Source: Desulfoscipio geothermicus DSM 3669 | GTDB lineage: Bacteria > Bacillota > Desulfotomaculia > Desulfotomaculales > Desulfallaceae | Direction of reading: 5' to 3' | DNA: 64,000 nt | Assembly: GCF_900115975.1 (NCBI RefSeq) | Contig: NZ_FOYM01000011.1 | Span: 1 to 64,000 of the forward strand | Shown here: in pieces, positions 7,304 through 52,621 of the stretch | Layout: each line of letters opens with the position of its first letter | Numbering within the stretch: position 1 is the first letter of the stretch | The notes under the pieces: model-generated | Database searches by the model: none | Told to the model about the DNA's origin: nothing | The model's input: the letters and a program-made list of their open reading frames with translations, nothing else | Translations under genes and position numbers: made by a program

Positions 7304-7702
7304 ATGGTCATGACTGATCCTGTTGCCGATTTTTTGACCCGTATTCGCAATGCCAATACGGTTTATCATGATAAAGTCGAGGCCCCCGCTTCCAAAGTGA
7401 AGCGTGCCATTGCAGAAATACTGAAGCAGGAAGGCTACATCAGGGATTATGAATATATTGAGGATGGCAAACAGGGTATAATACGAATTTACCTCAAGTA
7501 CACCAAAGACAGGGAACGGATAATCACCGGGCTCAAGCGCATATCCAAGCCGGGATTGCGGGTATACGCGCGCAAGGATTCCATCCCCAAGGTGCTGGGT
7601 GGGCTGGGTATTGCTATCATATCCACCTCCCGGGGTATTGTGACCGATAAAAAAGCCCGTCAGGAGGGCCTCGGCGGCGAGGTAATCTGCTACGTCTGGT
7701 AG
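7304..7702 (+). CDS. rpsH: 30S ribosomal protein S8
   Basis: 132 residues starting [18 protein letters not shown], with the C-terminal [16 protein letters not shown] typical of S8. S8 binds helix 21 of 16S rRNA, and in enterobacteria also represses the spc operon. A second in-frame ATG at 7310 is possible; 7304 sits better behind AAGGAGG. Confidence 0.97.
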
Positions 7703-7724
7703 AAGGGCATAGGAGGTGTAAGGC

Positions 7725-8270
7725 ATGAGCAGAATCGGCAGAAAACCGATCTCGCTTCCCGATGCGGTTAAGGTCACGTTGGAAGGCAACACCGTGCGGG
7801 TGGAAGGCCCTAAAGGGAAGCTGGAAAAAGAGTTTCACAAGGACATGATCATTAAACAGGTTGATGACCGTACAATAGTGGTGGAAAGACCTTCGGAAAA
7901 CAAGCTGCACAAATCTTTACACGGTCTTACCCGAACCCTGCTCAACAACATGGTCCAGGGGGTGGCCAACGGCTTCCAAAAAAACCTGGAACTGGTCGGA
8001 GTGGGTTACCGGGCTGCCATGCAGGGCAAAAAGCTGGTATTGACCGTGGGGTACTCGCACCCTGTGGAAATAGAGCCCCCGCCGGGCATCGAGATTGAAG
8101 TGCCCGCCCCCACCAAAATTGCGGTCAAGGGTATCGACAAGGAAATGGTGGGCGCCATTGCGGCCAACATCCGCGCGGTACGGGAACCGGAGCCCTATAA
8201 GGGCAAGGGCATCAAGTATGAAAACGAGCGGATCCGCCGTAAAGTCGGTAAAGCCGGGGTTAAGCGTTAA
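7725..8270 (+). CDS. rplF: 50S ribosomal protein L6
   Basis: 181 residues starting [17 protein letters not shown]. The duplicated L6 fold is evident, and the second half has [21 protein letters not shown], which touches the sarcin-ricin loop region. AGGAGGTG precedes the ATG. rplR follows after 24 bases. Confidence 0.97.
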
Positions 8271-8294
8271 AACAGGGGGAAGGAGTGAAGTGGC

Positions 8295-8660
8295 ATGATT
8301 AACAAACCTGACCGCAACGAATTGCGGAAAAAGCGGCAGCTGCGCGTACGCAATAAAATTCAAGGCACCGCACAGCGGCCGAGACTGAACGTATACCGCA
8401 GCCTCAATAATATATACGCTCAGATTATCAACGACGACCTGGGGGAAACCTTGGTGGCTGCGTCTTCCCTTTCGCCCGAAATTAAAGGTAAAGTGGCCGG
8501 CGGCAACAAGGAGGCGGCCGTGGAAGTGGGCAAGCTGATTGCGGCCAAGGCCCAGGAAAAAGGAATCAAAAAAGTGGTGTTTGATCGTGCCGGTTATATT
8601 TATCACGGCCGGATTAAAGCCCTGGCAGACGGCGCCAGGGAAGGCGGCCTCGAATTTTAG
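8295..8660 (+). CDS. rplR: 50S ribosomal protein L18
   Basis: 121 residues with the N-terminal arm [20 protein letters not shown] and the ending [20 protein letters not shown]18 delivers 5S rRNA to the 50S subunit with L5. The ribosome binding site is GGGGAAGGAG, 11 bases before the ATG. Confidence 0.97.
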
Positions 8661-41861: not shown

Positions 41862-42038
41862 TTTTTTTCACCGCCTGTTCATTCTTTCCTGTATTCAACA
41901 ATATTATCATATCCCGGTTGCACGGTAAAACAACAGGGTGTGTTTTTTTCCAGAGCATTTAGCGGCAGGAATCGGACTATAAACTACAGAATTTGTACAC
42001 ATTTAGAGAATAAATATCGGAATGTGAGGGGAAAGTCT

Positions 42039-45000
42039 TTGAAATATATAGCCCTGGGAGGCGGCAACGAGGTTGGCGCCAGCTGCAACCTGCTACAACT
42101 GAACGGAACAAATTTTTTGCTGGATGCCGGCATCCGCATGGGAGCCGGGGAAGCGGGCGGCCCCGCCGATGCGCTGCCCGACCTGGCGCTGCTGCAGGAA
42201 GCGGGGGGAGTTGAGGCGGTACTGGTTTCCCACGCGCACCTCGACCATATCGGCGCGCTGCCGCTGGTGCACCAGGCCTACCCCGCGGCCCCTATTTACG
42301 CCACCATGCCTACCGTGCATCTGATGCGGGTACTGCTGGCCGATGCCCTGAAAATTATGTCCATCAAGGCGGAGCAGGAATTTGAATGTCCCCTGTACAA
42401 TGACGAACTGGTCGCGCGGATGTTCACCCGCGTGGTTCCCGTGCCCGTGGGCGGCAGCGTGCAGTTGCCCGGTGCTGTAAGGGCGTTCTTTTTCCCTGCC
42501 GGGCATATCCTGGGGGCTGCCATGATTGGTTTGGAGGGGGCTGAAGGGCGGGTGCTGTATACCGGTGACATATCTACGGGCAACCAGCGCACCATTTCCG
42601 GCATGGTGGCGCCCGATTTCGCCCCGCACCTGCTGATTATTGAATCCACCTACGGTAATCGCCTGCACGCCAACCGGCAGCGGGAAGAAAAGGCCCTGGT
42701 GGAAACCGTGTCGGAAGTAATCGAGTCGGGCGGGCACGCGCTGATCCCGGCCTTTGCCCTGGGGCGGGCGCAGGAAATTATCCTGCTCATCCAGGCGCAC
42801 CAGCAGGCCGGTTTGATTCCCCGGTTTCCGATCTGGGTGGACGGTATGGTGCGCAGTATTTGCCAGGCATACGTAAATTTTCCGGAGCTTTTGCGTGGCC
42901 CGCTGAAACGGTTCATCAACAACGGTGGTAACCCCTTTTTCCGGGAGAAGGGCGCCCGCCCCGTCACTTCGACCCCGTTGCGGGAAAAGGTGCTGGCCGG
43001 TGCCCCGGCGTGCATCGTATCCAGTTCCGGCATGTTGACCGGCGGCCCTTCCCAGTTTTATGCCTCCCGCCTGGTGGACGATCCCCGGCACGCCATCATA
43101 TTTTGCGGCTACCAGGACGAAGAAAGCCCGGGGCGCCGGCTGCTTGCGCTGGCTGACAATCCCGAGGCCACCATTACCCTGGACGGCCGGGAAATACGGG
43201 TGCAGTGCCGCCTGGCCCAATACGGCCTGTCCGCGCATGCCGATGCCGGCGAACTGGCGGCCCTGACCGCGCGTATGCGTCCCCGCCGGGTGGTGCTGGT
43301 ACACGGCGATGACGATGCCAGGCAGGCCTTGGCCCGGACCCTGGCCGACAACCGCCGGGCCGTGCTGGCGCCTGTAAACGGGGAATGGTTGGAATTTTCC
43401 TTCCGGCGGGCCGGGCGCGGGAAGTTCGAATTTTCGCCCGCCGGTGGTGCGGGCGGGGGTGCTCCGGGCAAGGAACGCGTTGCCCCCCCGGACGCGGGTG
43501 AGCTGTGGCAGGAGTTGATCCGCAACCCGGCCACCAGAAATAAACTTTTTTCGGCTGAGGAACTGGCGGCTCTGTGGTTCAGGGGCGAAACAACCCCGGA
43601 AAGGCAGGCCCAAATGGCTGCCATACTGGAAAAAGACGACCGTTACTTTGCCGCCGACTGGAAGCACCCATACTTTTACCGTCCCCGTCGCCCGGACCAG
43701 GTGGCCGCGGACAGGCGGCGGGAAACTATCATGCAGGGGTTATCCCACCTGCCGGGCCGGCTGGTTTTGGTGCGGGACGGCGGCGGCGCGGTGCGGGCAG
43801 GCATCTGTTACGCGGTGGACCGGCTGGGCTTTTATGCCTGGAAGGTGGGCCGGGACAGCACCTGGCACCCGGCGGATACTTTGCTGGAAATTATTGCGCC
43901 CTGGTATGAACAGGTGGAAACGGCGGGAGAAACTCAAGACGAGGAAGCCTTGAGATCGGAACAAAAACAAAAACTGCACCGGTTTTTGCTGCGGGTAAAG
44001 CCCATCTACCGGCAGCTTAAACCTTTAAAACTGTGGGAGCAAATGCGGGCGTTGCGCGCGGAGCCGGCTACAGCGCGGGAATGGCGGGACATGCTGGGTT
44101 TGGACGAGGGGGTGGAGTCACTTACGGCGCTGGCCTGGCGGCTGAATACCCATCCCGAATATTTCGTCCGTGAATTTGTTCCCGGCGGTGTGCCTAATTA
44201 TGTTTGCCGGGAAGAAATACCCCGGGAAGAAGCCGGCCGTGACGAGGAAATGGTGGACCGGATGGAACAAAACGCCGCCCTGGCGGTGGCCGAAGAGTTG
44301 TTCCCCACTGAAAGCGGCCTGTACCGCAAGGGCCTGGACCGGGACGCGGGGGAAATTACATTGTACTTTCACTTTCCCGCCACGGCGGCGGATCGATATC
44401 GCGCCCAAATAGAACAATTGGGTGCCGTCACGGGCTGGTCGGTGCGCATTCACCCCGAGGCGCATCACGGTGCCCTATCCGAAGCGGTGCGCCGGTTGCT
44501 GCCCGGGACGTGGCGCATGCTCCGCAATCCTTCCATTCACCGGGAAAACAACATGGTCAGCGTACGCTGCGATATCCCTCCGGGCGAAGAAAACATGGTG
44601 ACGGAAGTAGCCGGGCGTTTTAAGGAACAGACCGGACAGGAATTGCGTATCGAAACGCCGGGCGAAACCGGCGCCGTGTCGTTGCAGGAGCAACCTGCCG
44701 GGTCCGTGGTTGGTCCGGCGGAAGACTGCATGGAAATCAACGCGGCCTATGCAACCATTCGCGCCACCCTGCAGGAGGCCGGGGCGACGGTGTATAAAAC
44801 CGGCAAAAAGAATGCCGGAAACTTTGAATATATTGAAGTAAGTTTTATCAGCCCCGATGTAGGGGAACGGTACCGGGGCGTATTGGATGAGCTGCAAAAA
44901 CAAACCGGCTGGCCTGTCCGCATCAACCCCAGGCCCAATCAGAATGAAATCAAGGCCCTGGTCCGGCAGTCCCTGGAACCCGCCTGGGGGTTGGTGAAAG

Positions 45001-45137
45001 AACCGGGTTTCTTTGAGATCGGGCGGGCGGTGCGTGTCAAACTAAAAGCGCCCCCGGCGCCGGATGATCCCCGGTGGCTCGGAATGGTGGAAGAAATAAA
45101 GGCTAGAACCGGTTACCGGGTGGAGTATGTTGAGTAA
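42039..45137 (+). CDS. Metallo-beta-lactamase/beta-CASP nuclease with a large C-terminal region
   Basis: 1032 residues from TTG 42039 behind GAGGGGAAAG. Residues about 1-450 are a CPSF73/RNase J-type nuclease: VSHAHLDHIGALPL (about 65), YTGDIS, IESTYGNR, SSSGMLTGGPSQFY, and GYQDEESPGRRLL, AQYGLSAHAD, VHGDDDARQAL. The following 580 residues are not part of the usual enzyme. They include a duplicated unit of about 88 residues (about 787-873 and 945-1032, both with TGWxVRI and ending TGxxxRxE/V). Role in RNA processing is inferred from the nuclease core; the extension is unknown to me. Confidence 0.85.
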   Translation: MKYIALGGGNEVGASCNLLQLNGTNFLLDAGIRMGAGEAGGPADALPDLALLQEAGGVEAVLVSHAHLDHIGALPLVHQAYPAAPIYATMPTVHLMRVLLADALKIMSIKAEQEFECPLYNDELVARMFTRVVPVPVGGSVQLPGAVRAFFFPAGHILGAAMIGLEGAEGRVLYTGDISTGNQRTISGMVAPDFAPHLLIIESTYGNRLHANRQREEKALVETVSEVIESGGHALIPAFALGRAQEIILLIQAHQQAGLIPRFPIWVDGMVRSICQAYVNFPELLRGPLKRFINNGGNPFFREKGARPVTSTPLREKVLAGAPACIVSSSGMLTGGPSQFYASRLVDDPRHAIIFCGYQDEESPGRRLLALADNPEATITLDGREIRVQCRLAQYGLSAHADAGELAALTARMRPRRVVLVHGDDDARQALARTLADNRRAVLAPVNGEWLEFSFRRAGRGKFEFSPAGGAGGGAPGKERVAPPDAGELWQELIRNPATRNKLFSAEELAALWFRGETTPERQAQMAAILEKDDRYFAADWKHPYFYRPRRPDQVAADRRRETIMQGLSHLPGRLVLVRDGGGAVRAGICYAVDRLGFYAWKVGRDSTWHPADTLLEIIAPWYEQVETAGETQDEEALRSEQKQKLHRFLLRVKPIYRQLKPLKLWEQMRALRAEPATAREWRDMLGLDEGVESLTALAWRLNTHPEYFVREFVPGGVPNYVCREEIPREEAGRDEEMVDRMEQNAALAVAEELFPTESGLYRKGLDRDAGEITLYFHFPATAADRYRAQIEQLGAVTGWSVRIHPEAHHGALSEAVRRLLPGTWRMLRNPSIHRENNMVSVRCDIPPGEENMVTEVAGRFKEQTGQELRIETPGETGAVSLQEQPAGSVVGPAEDCMEINAAYATIRATLQEAGATVYKTGKKNAGNFEYIEVSFISPDVGERYRGVLDELQKQTGWPVRINPRPNQNEIKALVRQSLEPAWGLVKEPGFFEIGRAVRVKLKAPPAPDDPRWLGMVEEIKARTGYRVEYVE

Positions 45138-45628: not shown

Positions 45629-45657
45629 TATTTTATTGTTGTGTGGAGGTCGAAAAT

Positions 45658-46701
45658 ATGCAAATAAAGGTTGGGGTTATCGGCGCGACCGGTTATGCCG
45701 GCGCGGAACTGGTGCGTATCTTATCGGCGCACCCCCACGCAGAGCTGGTGGCTCTAACTACCCAGAGCTACGGGGGAAAGGCTTTTTGTGAAGTGTACCC
45801 GCATTTATACAAACATGTGGCCCTGGAATGCCGGGAACTGGACCTGCCGGCCCTGGCGGAACAGGCCGACGTAATATTCGCGGCCCTGCCGCACGGGCAC
45901 GTCGTACCGGTGGCCAGGGAGGTGCTGGCACGGGGTAAAAAGTTTATCGACCTGGGCGCCGATTTTCGTTTCGACAGTTCGGAAGTCTACGAACAGTGGT
46001 ATAAAGTGGAACATACCGCTCCGGAGTTGCTCCGGCAGGCGGTTTACGGGTTGCCGGAAGTACACCGGGAAAAGATAAAAACTGCCTCCCTGGTGGGAAA
46101 CCCGGGTTGTTATCCCACCAGCGTAATCCTGGGACTGGCACCGCTGCTGCGCAGCGGCCTGGTGGATACCGGGACCGTTGTGGTGGACAGTAAATCCGGG
46201 GTATCCGGCGCGGGCCGCGGCCTGTCCCTGGGTACGCATTTCGCCGAGGTTAACGAGAACTTCCGCGCCTATAACGTGGGGGTGCACCGGCATACGCCTG
46301 AAATTGAGCAGGAATTGGGCAAACTGGCCGGGGAGGAAATGCGCATTTCGTTCACCCCGCACCTCACACCCATGAACAGGGGTATTTTGAGCACCATATA
46401 CGCCAAACTAAAGCGGGAGATGACCCTGGAGCAGGTTCGCGCGGTGTATGAGGAATTTTATCGAAGTGAATATTTTGTGCGCCTGTTGCCCCCGGGCATT
46501 TTGCCCCAGACCAAGGCGGTGGCCGGTTCCAACCACTGCGATGTGGTGCCCGTGGTGGACCCGCGCACCGGGCGGGTGGTGGTGCTTTCGGCCATTGACA
46601 ACCTGATCAAGGGGGCGGCGGGCCAGGCGGTGCAAAATATGAATGTGATGTTCGGGCTGCCCGAAACCACGGGCCTGGAAAGGCCGGGTTTGTATCCGTA
46701 A
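45658..46701 (+). CDS. argC: N-acetyl-gamma-glutamyl-phosphate reductase
   Basis: 347 residues. It reduces N-acetylglutamyl phosphate to the semialdehyde with NADPH, the third step toward ornithine. The dinucleotide motif GVIGATGYAGAELVRIL is at the N-terminus and the catalytic cysteine is in LVGNPGCYPTS (about 150). ATG 45658 follows GTGGAGGTCG; an in-frame start five codons earlier would overlap that site. It is the first gene of the cluster. Confidence 0.96.
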   Translation: MQIKVGVIGATGYAGAELVRILSAHPHAELVALTTQSYGGKAFCEVYPHLYKHVALECRELDLPALAEQADVIFAALPHGHVVPVAREVLARGKKFIDLGADFRFDSSEVYEQWYKVEHTAPELLRQAVYGLPEVHREKIKTASLVGNPGCYPTSVILGLAPLLRSGLVDTGTVVVDSKSGVSGAGRGLSLGTHFAEVNENFRAYNVGVHRHTPEIEQELGKLAGEEMRISFTPHLTPMNRGILSTIYAKLKREMTLEQVRAVYEEFYRSEYFVRLLPPGILPQTKAVAGSNHCDVVPVVDPRTGRVVVLSAIDNLIKGAAGQAVQNMNVMFGLPETTGLERPGLYP

Positions 46702-46791
46702 GCCGGGTTCCGGCGCTCCGATACATTAGTGGAACCACCCGGCCCGCAAGGCAACGCTGCTTCGTGGGCGGCTAATTTAGGGAGGAAAAGT

Positions 46792-48006
46792 ATGTCACAA
46801 ATTAAAATGAAAGAACTGCCCGGCGGGGTAACGACCCCGCCGGGGTTTACCGCCGCCGGGGTAACGGCAGGCATAAAAAACGGTAAAAAAGACGTGGCCA
46901 TAATTTATTCGGAGCAGGAAGCCGTCGCTGCCGGAGTATTCACCACCAACAAGATCAAGGCGGCGCCGGTCCGGTTGACCATGCAGCACCTGGAGTCCGG
47001 CAAGGCCCGGGCCGTGGTGGTCAACAGCGGAAACGCCAACGCCTGCAACGGGCTCCGGGGTATGGAAGACGCCCGGGCCATGGCGGCACTTACCGGTGAA
47101 CTGCTGCAAGTGCCGGCGGAACAGGTGCTGGTGGCCTCCACCGGCGTTATCGGCCAACCCATGCCCATGGATAAAGTGCTGCCCGGCATTCGGCGGGCGG
47201 CGGCCGAACAAAGCCGGGAGGGCGGGCCGGACGCCGCCGCCGCCATCATGACCACCGATACCGTGACCAAGGAAGCGGCGGTGGCGGTGGATCTTGGCGG
47301 CGTTACCGTGACCGTGGGCGGTATGGCCAAGGGTTCGGGCATGATCCATCCCAATATGGCCACCATGTTGGGCTTTATCACCACCGACGCCGCTATAGAG
47401 CTGCAATGGCTGAAAAAAGCACTGGTTCATGCCGTGGAACGTACTTTTAACATGATTACGGTGGACGGTGATTCCAGCACCAACGACATGGTGGTCGCCC
47501 TGGCCAACGGCATGGCGGAAAACCGGGTTATCAACGGCGAAGGGCTGGATTATACGGCTTTCTGCGCGGCGCTGGAAGCGGTTTGCCGCAAGTTGGCCAT
47601 GGCCATTGCCGGGGACGGTGAAGGAGCCACCAAGTTGCTGGAAGTGCAGGTGCGGGGCATGCGTACCGAGCAGGACGCCAGGCTGGCCGCCCGGGCAGTG
47701 GCTGCCTCCAATCTGGTCAAATCGGCCGTGTTCGGTAAGGACGCCAACTGGGGGCGGGTAATCTGCGCCGTGGGTTACTCCGGTGCGGAATTCAACCCGG
47801 AGACGGTGGACATATATATCGACGATGTACAGGTGGCCCAAAACGGCGCGGGGCTGGCATTCAACGAAGAACAGGCGGCCGAGGTGCTGGACCGCGACCA
47901 CGTGGTGTTCATCATTGACTGCCATGACGGCGACTGCGCCGCCACCGCCTGGGGTTGCGACCTGACCTATGAATACGTCCGCATCAACGGCAGCTACCGC
48001 ACTTAG
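46792..48006 (+). CDS. argJ: Bifunctional ornithine acetyltransferase / N-acetylglutamate synthase
   Basis: 404 residues. It transfers acetyl from N-acetylornithine to glutamate, allowing the cyclic route. The self-cleavage site is in GMIHPNMATMLGFITTDA, where cleavage before the second threonine gives the alpha and beta chains. The chain starts MSQIKMKELPGGVTTPPGF behind AGGGAGG. The argC-argJ gap can form two hairpins (CCGGGT/ACCCGG and GCCCGC/GTGGGC). Confidence 0.95.
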   Translation: MSQIKMKELPGGVTTPPGFTAAGVTAGIKNGKKDVAIIYSEQEAVAAGVFTTNKIKAAPVRLTMQHLESGKARAVVVNSGNANACNGLRGMEDARAMAALTGELLQVPAEQVLVASTGVIGQPMPMDKVLPGIRRAAAEQSREGGPDAAAAIMTTDTVTKEAAVAVDLGGVTVTVGGMAKGSGMIHPNMATMLGFITTDAAIELQWLKKALVHAVERTFNMITVDGDSSTNDMVVALANGMAENRVINGEGLDYTAFCAALEAVCRKLAMAIAGDGEGATKLLEVQVRGMRTEQDARLAARAVAASNLVKSAVFGKDANWGRVICAVGYSGAEFNPETVDIYIDDVQVAQNGAGLAFNEEQAAEVLDRDHVVFIIDCHDGDCAATAWGCDLTYEYVRINGSYRT

Positions 48007-48185
48007 GGGGTCAGACTTAAACTTAATTAAACTAACTTTGCCAAGCCCGGATTGTGTGTTAATATTACTTGCCTGGGCATTTTCAAACTAAACGAAGGCC
48101 GCTCTTCTTGGTGGTTTGGCAAAGTAATGATTTTTTTATATATATGAATATCATGGTTAGTTTAAACCAATTTAAGTCTGACCCC
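48007..48185. repeat. 179-bp element with 30-bp inverted ends between argJ and argB
   Basis: The left end GGGGTCAGACTTAAACTTAA (48007 on) and right end TTTAAACCAATTTAAGTCTG (to 48185) are near-perfect inverted 30-base arms. The arms extend inward with CTTTGCCAAG against TTTGGCAAAG. The middle codes for nothing obvious. It starts on the base after the argJ stop and ends just before the argB ribosome binding site. It resembles a small non-autonomous (MITE/REP-type) element. Confidence 0.75.
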
Positions 48186-48204
48186 GGAGAAAGGAGGGGG
48201 GGCT

Positions 48205-49092
48205 GTGCCAAGTCCCATGGAAAAGGCGGGCATCCTGGTGGAGGCTTTGCCGTACATAAAGAAATTTTACGGTAAGACGGTGGTTATTAAGTATGGCGGG
48301 CATGCCATGATCAATTGCGAGCTGAAGAAAGCGGTGCTCACCGATGCCGTATTGATGAAATACGTGGGTATGCACCCCGTGATCGTGCACGGCGGGGGGC
48401 CGGAGATTACCGGCATGCTCAAAAAAGTGGGCAAGGAGAGCAGTTTTGTGGGGGGCCTCAGGGTTACCGACGCCGAGACCATGGAAATTGCCCAGATGGT
48501 GCTGGTGGGCAAGGTGAACAAGGATATTGTGGGTATGATCAACAGCATCGGGGGCAACGCCGTGGGGCTTTCCGGCAAGGACGGCAACCTGCTGGTGGCC
48601 GAGAAGAAAATGGGCAAGGTGCGCACCCGGGACGGTGCCGAGGAACTGGTGGATATCGGCCATGTGGGCGAGGTGCGGCAGGTCAACCCCGGTATTGTGA
48701 ATACGGTGATCAGGGAAGGGTATATCCCCGTGGTGGCGCCGGTGGCCGAAGGGGAAGCGGGGGAAAGCTACAATGTCAACGCCGACAGCGCCGCCGGAGT
48801 GCTGGCGGTGGCCCTGCGGGCGGATAAATTGATTATTCTTACCGATGTGGAGGGCATTTTGGCGGATCGGAACGATAAAAATTCGCTGCTGTCCACCATT
48901 ACCTTGGAAGAGGTGCCCGGCCTGATTGACCGGGGAATAATCGACGGGGGGATGATCCCCAAGGTGGAATGCTGTGTGGCCGCCCTGCGGGGCGGGGTCA
49001 GCACCACTCACATTCTGGACGGGCGGGTGCCGCATTCGGTGCTCCTGGAGGTATTTACCGACCGTGGCGTGGGTACCATGGTGGTTAAATGA
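48205..49092 (+). CDS. argB: Acetylglutamate kinase
   Basis: 295 residues with the amino acid kinase fold: [10 protein letters not shown] (phosphate binding), [15 protein letters not shown] and [16 protein letters not shown]. It phosphorylates N-acetylglutamate, usually the arginine-inhibited step in cyclic pathways. GTG 48205 follows AAAGGAGGGGG by six bases; ATG 48217 would be too distant. The repeat arm at 48156-48185 lies directly upstream. Confidence 0.95.
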
Positions 49093-49108
49093 TAAGGGGG
49101 TTGCAGTA

Positions 49109-50299
49109 GTGAATACCAGTGAAATCATGCAACTAAGCGATCAGTATGTAATGCACACTTACGGTCGGATCGGGCTGGCCCCGGTGCGGGGCGAGGGAGC
49201 GCGCCTGTGGGATGCCGACGGCCGGGAGTTCCTGGATTTTGTGGGCGGCATAGCGGTTAATTCCCTGGGCCACTGCCACCCCGCCGTGGTGCGGGCGATA
49301 CAGGAGCAGGCCGCCCGGCTGATGCACGTGAGCAACCTGTATTATATAGAGCCCCAGGCCCGGCTGGCCGAACTGCTGGTGCAGAATTCCTGCTGCGACC
49401 GGGTATTTTTCTGCAACAGCGGGGCCGAGGCCAACGAGGGGGCCATCAAGCTGGCCCGCAAGTGGGCCAAAAAGCAACACGGAGCGGATAAATACGAAAT
49501 CATCACTGCGGAAAAATCTTTCCACGGGCGCACCCTGGCGGCCATCACCGCCACCGGGCAGCCCAAATACCAGCAGGGTTTTGAGCCCCTGCCGCCGGGA
49601 TTCAAGTACGTGCCCTTCAACGACCCGGACGCGCTGGAGCGGGCCATTGGCCCCCATACCTGCGCCGTAATGCTGGAGCCGGTGCAGGGCGAGGGCGGCG
49701 TTTACGCGGCCGCTTCGGAGTACCTGGCCGGGGTGCGGGAACTGTGCGACCGTAACGGGCTGCTGCTGGTTTTTGATGAAGTGCAGTGCGGCCTGGGGCG
49801 CACCGGCGAATTCCTGGCCTACCAGCACTACGACGTGGAACCCGACATCATTACCCTGGCCAAGGCGCTGGGCGGCGGTTTTCCCATCGGGGCCATGCTG
49901 GCCAAAGAAACAGTGGCCGCCGCTTTTGCGCCCGGCGATCATGCCACCACCTTCGGAGGCAACCCGCTGGCTTGCGCTGCGGGACTGGCGGCCATGCAAA
50001 CCATGCTCGGCGATGGTGTGATGCAAAATTGCCGGGCGGTGGGGGCATACTTTAAGGAAAAACTGCAGGACCTGGCCCGCAAGTACGATTTCATCAAGGA
50101 AGTGCGCGGCTTGGGTCTGCTGCTGGGCATGGAATTGAACCGGCCCGGCGGGGATATAGTGAACCGGTGCCGGGAAAAGGGCCTGTTGATCAATTGTGTG
50201 AACAACAATGTGCTGCGGTTCACCCCGCCGCTGGTTATCGGCACGGAAGAGGTGGACCGGGCGTTGGAAACGGTGGAAGCTGTTTTAATTGCCGGTTGA
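49109..50299 (+). CDS. argD: Acetylornithine aminotransferase
   Basis: 396 residues. A class III PLP aminotransferase with NSGAEANEGAIKLAR, FDEVQCGLGRTG and the PLP lysine in ITLAKALGGGFPIGAM. It forms N-acetylornithine from the semialdehyde and glutamate. GTG 49109 follows AAGGGGG, 16 bases after argB; the open frame upstream lies inside argB. Confidence 0.95.
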   Translation: MNTSEIMQLSDQYVMHTYGRIGLAPVRGEGARLWDADGREFLDFVGGIAVNSLGHCHPAVVRAIQEQAARLMHVSNLYYIEPQARLAELLVQNSCCDRVFFCNSGAEANEGAIKLARKWAKKQHGADKYEIITAEKSFHGRTLAAITATGQPKYQQGFEPLPPGFKYVPFNDPDALERAIGPHTCAVMLEPVQGEGGVYAAASEYLAGVRELCDRNGLLLVFDEVQCGLGRTGEFLAYQHYDVEPDIITLAKALGGGFPIGAMLAKETVAAAFAPGDHATTFGGNPLACAAGLAAMQTMLGDGVMQNCRAVGAYFKEKLQDLARKYDFIKEVRGLGLLLGMELNRPGGDIVNRCREKGLLINCVNNNVLRFTPPLVIGTEEVDRALETVEAVLIAG

Positions 50300-50411
50300 A
50301 GAGGTTAAACCCGTTGAGCGAAAGGATTGCCCTATGCCGGATGTCGCAAAGCAATTGGCTTTAAGACCGGTTAACTTGGTCGATAATTCCAGAAAGAAGC
50401 GGTGATAATAA

Positions 50412-51359
50412 ATGAATTCCGTTAAAGATAACCTAAAAGGGAGAGATTTGCTTTCCCTGCATGATTTTACTCCCGGGGAAATTCAGTTTATACTGGATTA
50501 CGCAGCCGATTTAAAACAAAAACAAAAGAACGGCGAGCCGCACGAACTGCTCAAAGGGCTGACGCTGGCCATGATTTTCCAAAAATCATCCACCCGGACC
50601 AGGGTTAGTTTTGAAGTGGGCATGTATCAACTGGGGGGGCACGCCCTTTATTTAAATGCCAACGACCTACAGCTGGGGCGAGGGGAAAGTATAGCCGACA
50701 CCGGGCGGGTGCTGGGCCGCTATGCTGATGGCATAATGATTCGCACCTTTGCCCAGGGCGACGTGGAAGAGCTGGCCGAATGCGCCTCGATTCCTGTAAT
50801 CAACGGCTTGACGGATTTGCTGCACCCCTGCCAGATTCTGGCGGACCTGTTGACGGTGCAGGAGCATAAAGGCCGGCTGGCCGGGTTAAAATTGGCCTAT
50901 GTGGGCGACGGTAACAACGTTTGCCATTCCCTGCTTTACGGCTGCGCCAAGACGGGTATGCATATCAGCGTGGCTTCGCCGGAAGGCTTCCTGCCCCGGG
51001 AGGAAATAGTGGCCACCGCCCGCTATGACGCCGCGGCAACCGGCGCCGAAGTCACTGTCACCACAGATCCGGCGGAAGCGGTGTCCGGGGCGGATGTGGT
51101 GGTAACCGACGTTTGGGCCAGCATGGGGCAGGAGAGCGAGCAGCAGGCCCGCATGCGGGTATTTGCCCCCTATCAAGTTAACGAACAATTGGTTGCGAAG
51201 GCCGCGTCCGATTATATATTCCTGCACTGCCTGCCCGCCCACCGTGGCGAGGAGGTGGCCGCCGAAGTAATTGACGGGCCGCATTCGGTGGTGTTTGACG
51301 AGGCCGAAAACCGCCTGCACGCTCAAAAGGCGGTGCTGTCCCTGCTGATGGCGAAATAG
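50412..51359 (+). CDS. argF: Ornithine carbamoyltransferase
   Basis: 315 residues. The carbamoyl phosphate motif is [18 protein letters not shown], and the ornithine side has HPCQILADL and [13 protein letters not shown]. It makes citrulline. No carbamoyl phosphate synthase genes are in the cluster, unlike Bacillus where carAB sits between argD and argF. AGAAAGAAGCGGTG lies upstream of the ATG. Confidence 0.95.
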
Positions 51360-51364
51360 GTAAA

Positions 51365-51394
51365 GTTAGTTTAAACAAGTTTAAGTCTGACCCC
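51365..51394 (+). repeat. 30-nt repeat arm directly before argG
   Basis: GTTAGTTTAAACAAGTTTAA then GTCTGACCCC. It differs at only a few positions from the right arm at 48156-48185 and from the copy at 59657-59686. It ends 18 bases before the argG start codon. Confidence 0.8.
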
Positions 51395-51412
51395 ATAATG
51401 AAGGGAGCAAGC

Positions 51413-52621
<1,209 letters not shown>

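Follow-up and report, generated by a model that had tools for sequence, protein, structure and literature searches.

The closest described systems to the gene analysed here are the archaeal transcription-termination nucleases aCPSF1/FttA (MTH1203, PH1404; PDB 2ycb, 3af5, 2xr1, 9bct), which also combine a CPSF-type MBL/beta-CASP core with tandem KH-like modules. On its own, the KH pair of aCPSF1 binds to U-tracts, and in vivo the pair is required (PMC8716108); the first module of this pair, KHa, is without the GXXG motif (PMC3095777). A beta-CASP core is also found in Cas14 of Type VII CRISPR and in short bacterial CPSF-like nucleases of the TTHA0252 type, and RNase J has the MBL start of the core in common.

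The window analysed was a stretch of 64,000 nucleotides from Desulfoscipio geothermicus DSM 3669. The gene starts with TTG at position 42039 and its stop codon ends at position 45137 on the + strand, which gives a product of 1032 aa. A ribosome binding site (GAGGGG, 42026..42031, + strand) was read from the sequence 7 nt 5' of the TTG, and M1 of the relatives aligned at this start. A longer ORF from 41856 was rejected as a mechanical call since the starts of the relatives coincide with 42039 in the alignment. The product carries a nuclease core at residues 1-455 and an extension of 577 aa (42039..45137 for the whole ORF), in agreement with the approximate 450 and 580 residues given for them by the sequence-only reading. 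The same reading had called the protein oversized; the 1032 aa stand, but members of this widespread family usually have about 820-1030 aa.

In the core (42039..43403, + strand), the Pfam models Lactamase_B, Beta-Casp and RMMBL all scored above their cut-offs, with an E value of 2e-14 for RMMBL, the 'RNA specificity' domain. MBL motifs 1-4 and beta-CASP motifs A-C were all present, including the HAHLDH metal-binding motif 2 at residues 65-70 (42231..42248, + strand) and a His as motif C, and D29, H65, H67, D69, H70, H156, D177, E202, H400 and H422 were invariant in 107 of 107 relatives. Comparison with the PDB showed that the closest solved structures were archaeal aCPSF1 and then CPSF73, TTHA0252, INTS11 and Cas14. 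Judged by its catalytic motifs, the core is an intact CPSF-type beta-CASP nuclease, and it would be expected to cleave RNA. A family signature, GYQDEE[S/A]PGR, was located at residues 357-366 (43107..43136, + strand), where other beta-CASP enzymes compared read GYQAxGTLGR-like. Its central part at residues 360-365, D-[ED]-E-[SA]-P-G, was found in 107 of 107 family cores, whereas 15 other readable beta-CASP sequences, two aCPSF1 among them, had AxGTLG-like residues instead. A KH-less relative of 539 aa (L180:1326-2945, - strand, genome G124) carried the signature as GYQDEEAPGRA together with a different short tail, and may represent either a loss or an earlier state. In a tree of 64 cores, with few groups, a long-branch root and unsure rooting, the KH family stood apart from aCPSF1 and the short bacterial enzymes and its core showed no specific grouping with aCPSF1, a pattern compatible with either a shared or an independent gain of the KH modules. 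Another long beta-CASP type of about 800 aa was observed in the same phylum (L190, L191), with an N-terminal extension of about 360 residues and without the KH tetrad described below.

Between the core and the repeated tail, a winged-helix-like domain was located at residues 486-549 (43494..43685, + strand), with the order HHHEE in the AlphaFold model and a match to PF25255 (wH_RNase_II, E 9e-5) which is below the cut-off and was found in 14 of 70 relatives. It is followed by two parts of the long form only: a five-stranded SH3-like barrel at residues 574-621 (43758..43901, + strand), placed by AlphaFold secondary structure and alignment, and helices with a second winged-helix-like fold at residues 634-723 (43938..44207, + strand), placed by the AlphaFold model. 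Both parts were present in near relatives and, judged by spacing, probably also in the Anaerolineae members; the majority of members have only about 820-900 aa and contain neither. Pfam matches to Phosphonate-bd, DsbH and Kinase-PolyVal were weak or partial and were disregarded.

The tail consists of two units of about 135 residues each (residues 739-873 and 895-1032), with TGWxVRI motifs at residues 798-804 and 956-962. The profile of unit 1 detected unit 2 in the same protein with an E value of 4e-18, the reverse search gave 1e-23, and hhalign of unit 1 against unit 2 gave a probability of 100 and an E value of 7e-40 over 133 columns. Unit profiles detected both units in 106-107 of 112 family proteins. 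The profiles and hhalign therefore bear out the two-copy repeat with TGWxVRI motifs that had been read from the sequence, but not its length of about 88 residues, since the true unit of about 135 residues is itself made of two modules. The A and B halves matched each other at hhalign probabilities of 93-97. Each unit thus contains two related modules in tandem, which makes four in the tail: 1A (residues 739-805, 44253..44453), 1B (residues 806-873, 44454..44657), 2A (residues 895-963, 44721..44927) and 2B (residues 964-1032, 44928..45134), all on the + strand and placed by AlphaFold and hhalign. In Dictyobacter aurantiacus, the homologous protein (L101:6959-10591) had three units at approximately residues 731-860, 893-1045 and 1071-1200, which makes six modules and suggests that the unit is added modularly. 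At another locus (L057:8954-9385, - strand), a partial KH-like module was also seen in an ORF of 143 aa, 285 bases upstream of a full nuclease gene.

AlphaFold, supplied with 70 related sequences, modelled the extension at a mean pLDDT of 90.7, and unit 1 alone at a pLDDT of 97.6 and a pTM of 0.87. Modules 1A and 2A were predicted to have the type II KH order a-b-b-a-a-b, and modules 1B and 2B to be short of one core helix, the first of the two, which is reduced in 1B to give a-b-b-a-b. A Foldseek search against 350,542 PDB chains showed that the top three matches of the extension were aCPSF1/FttA chains, and the six best matches of unit 1 were all aCPSF1/FttA over about 131 columns covering both modules. 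Ribosomal-subunit proteins and NusA KH pairs came next. The fit was moderate, with a TM-score of 0.42 for unit 1 and an rmsd of 8-10 Å, which may mean that single modules match and that the angle between modules differs.

At the profile level, module 1A matched KHb of archaeal aCPSF1 with an hhalign probability of 90 over 56 of 59 columns, and the score of 31.0 compared with 18.0 for the best column shuffle; reversed windows and windows of the nuclease core never came close. Modules 2A and 1B matched KHb more weakly, beating all 100 shuffles at low probability, and 2B gave no hhalign match to KHb. Once the nuclease part had been removed, 13 of 70 extensions were still matched by the NCBIfam aCPSF1 model TIGR03675. 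Unit 1 of one of these (L124) aligned with model positions 3-119, that is KHa and then KHb, with an E value of 3.2e-6, and others matched over about positions 62-137. A KHb-only HMM gave one weak match in the family, no Pfam KH model reached its cut-off (the best was KH_1 with E 0.1 in one relative), and a PDB sequence-profile search with the near-relative alignment produced chance matches only. Overall, Foldseek, the hhalign scores against nulls and the NCBIfam matches to the extension alone support a predicted KH-like fold for the units; this had been a guess of the sequence-only reading.

The canonical GXXG motif was not found in the family; only 5 of the 104 sequences compared for each A module contained a G..G string. 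Module 2A has a conserved GxRY (residues 942-945) at the position of the GXXG loop, flanked in the AlphaFold model by helices at residues 939-943 and 946-956. The median net charge was -4 for unit 1 and +0.5 for unit 2, so the modules are not positively charged overall, and the conserved polar or basic residues of unit 2 are K920, K924, R944, N967, Q968 and K987. The GxRY at the GXXG position and the conservation of K920, K924, N967, Q968 and K987 make unit 2 the better candidate for RNA contact. RNA binding by the tetrad stays putative because the canonical GXXG is absent.

The family was carried by 9 of 113 genomes of the source's class and by 30-31 of 399 genomes of the phylum (about 8% of those sampled), which shows a patchy presence. 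A survey of named genomes, in which the best 80 loci were taken and phyla were read from record titles, placed it in Bacillota, Chloroflexota, Acidobacteriota, Planctomycetota, Riflebacteria, Armatimonadota, 'Deltaproteobacteria'/Myxococcales and others. Named carriers included Schinkia azotoformans, Fictibacillus macauensis, Caldicoprobacter oshimai and D. aurantiacus. The core and the full tetrad were on the same chain in 74 of the 80 named loci, and the remaining six run into contig ends. The combination of core and two units is thus no one-off. In the 399 genomes of the phylum, the unit profile found virtually nothing but the KH-tetrad nuclease family, which indicates a module dedicated to that family. 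At one locus of a single-contig genome (L063:5868-7526 and 7523-8362), nuclease and tetrad were two ORFs with a 4-base overlap, apparently a one-base junction difference from a fused sister, from either a sequencing error or a real fission. A stand-alone KH tetrad subunit was judged an unsafe call, as the candidates lay at assembly gaps of Ns (L061), differed from the fused sister by what looks like one base (L063), or began directly behind a frame that is broken close to the end of a contig (L025).

No conserved neighbour gene was found beyond near relatives at the loci compared. In the window, argC, J, B, D, F and G were read from the sequences after the nuclease gene (45643-52621), and in the survey this cluster next to the nuclease gene was common only to the near relatives L018, L020 and L021. 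Operon-partner logic was dropped, since neighbours vary and the arg cluster occurs in near relatives only. In Anaerolineae, ParA-like, ParB-like and primase-like ORFs were seen by eye within a few kb (L092, L096, L098 and also L097), which may be explained by a replicon or mobile-element setting or by chance. A defence or phage origin was discarded: PADLOC gave no match, neither plasmids nor phages were matched, and PHROGs matched the core only. Rho was found in 30 of 30 carriers tested and a full RNase J in 29 of 30, the exception being an 86% complete genome. Replacement of Rho or RNase J was ruled out, as the carriers tested retain both, and the KH-tetrad enzyme thus comes on top of the standard set.

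Among the models of Pfam, NCBIfam, PADLOC and PHROGs, none covers the extension. The sequence-only reading had allowed for a full-length match to a known, characterised family, and none appeared in the model libraries. A description of the family, or an experiment on any member, was not found in the open-access literature, although COG or InterPro annotation may exist. The family, spread across many bacterial phyla, is apparently undescribed.

The reading we favour, with fair confidence, is a zinc-dependent CPSF-type beta-CASP ribonuclease with a KH-like arm that selects or positions the substrate, working alongside RNase J and Rho. The zinc-dependent core would cleave RNA and the arm may choose or position either the RNA to be cut or a partner made of RNA and protein, by analogy with aCPSF1, whose KH pair binds U-tracts; the model for the arm is the N-terminal KH pair of aCPSF1/FttA, which directs that enzyme to U-rich RNA. 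The winged helix would join the tail to the core, the long form would add the SH3-like barrel and the second winged helix, and the enzyme would act alongside RNase J and Rho and not instead of them. RNA targeting is made doubtful chiefly by the lack of GXXG and by a charge that is neutral to acidic. These features fit a possible but clearly less probable alternative, in which the tetrad is a protein-protein module without RNA binding of its own, used to dimerise or to dock onto RNA polymerase, the ribosome or a different RNA-protein complex. The lack of GXXG in aCPSF1 KHa and the other roles of some Foldseek look-alikes, among them T3SS ring modules and CnfU, point the same way, but the conserved residues of unit 2, with R944 among them, and its GxRY at the GXXG position argue against it.

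A DNA-processing nuclease of the SNM1/Pso2 kind of beta-CASP enzyme, with the accessory folds binding nucleic acid, is unlikely: winged helices and KH-like folds are able to bind DNA and the four Anaerolineae loci lie near the ParA/ParB-like and primase-like ORFs seen by eye, but the core is of CPSF/RMMBL type with His as motif C, and elsewhere there is no common repair or mobile-element context and no plasmid or phage match. The combination of a CPSF-type nuclease with KH tandems, which are the ingredients of FttA, also brings to mind a bacterial factor-dependent transcription terminator acting on nascent RNA at RNA polymerase. This is very improbable given the presence in only about 8% of the sampled phylum genomes, the retention of Rho in all carriers tested and a core that showed no specific grouping with aCPSF1 in the tree, whose rooting is unsure. 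A wider speculation, to which we give little credence, is that the enzyme is the bacterial counterpart of the archaeal and eukaryotic CPSF-type termination nucleases, cutting nascent or 3'-end RNA chosen by the KH arm and so setting 3' ends beside Rho. Under the favoured reading of an RNA-targeting ribonuclease, the family points to an additional candidate RNase in culturable bacteria.

The sequence-only reading had held that ordinary RNase J and CPSF-type enzymes lack the extension. This is correct for RNase J and for the short bacterial CPSF-like paralogues, but not for archaeal aCPSF1/FttA with its N-terminal KH pair. The window protein scored 60.8 bits with the RNase J model TIGR00649 against a cut-off of 400, and the same genome encodes a true RNase J as a separate gene. 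Enzymes of the TTHA0252 type, one of which is also present in this genome (G000:C68), share about 30% identity in the core; they are mostly about 430-600 aa, without the KH tetrad, with a GYQAxGTLGR-like motif and separate in the tree. For Cas14, the window protein reached 232 bits against the NF045584 cut-off of 800, and the match stopped at profile position 426 of 612, with the C-terminal part of Cas14 unmatched. aCPSF1/FttA gave the collinear KHa-KHb profile match and the top fold matches to the unit of the window protein, although the score with TIGR03675 was 319 bits, under the cut-off of 580.2. It has a single KH pair at the N-terminus in the order KHa-KHb first, whereas the nuclease of the window protein begins at residue 1 and the KH-like units of the family are C-terminal and doubled (tripled in D. 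aurantiacus), without canonical GXXG and with winged-helix and SH3 insertions. The core motif is DEE[S/A]PG in the family and AxG(T/S)(L/I)G in aCPSF1/FttA. The protein can be described as a KH-armed beta-CASP nuclease that resembles aCPSF1, with the arm at the opposite terminus and in two copies. With the ingredients of aCPSF1 in another order and number, a core signature and a spread over many phyla, the family offers a comparison for how such nucleases find their RNA.
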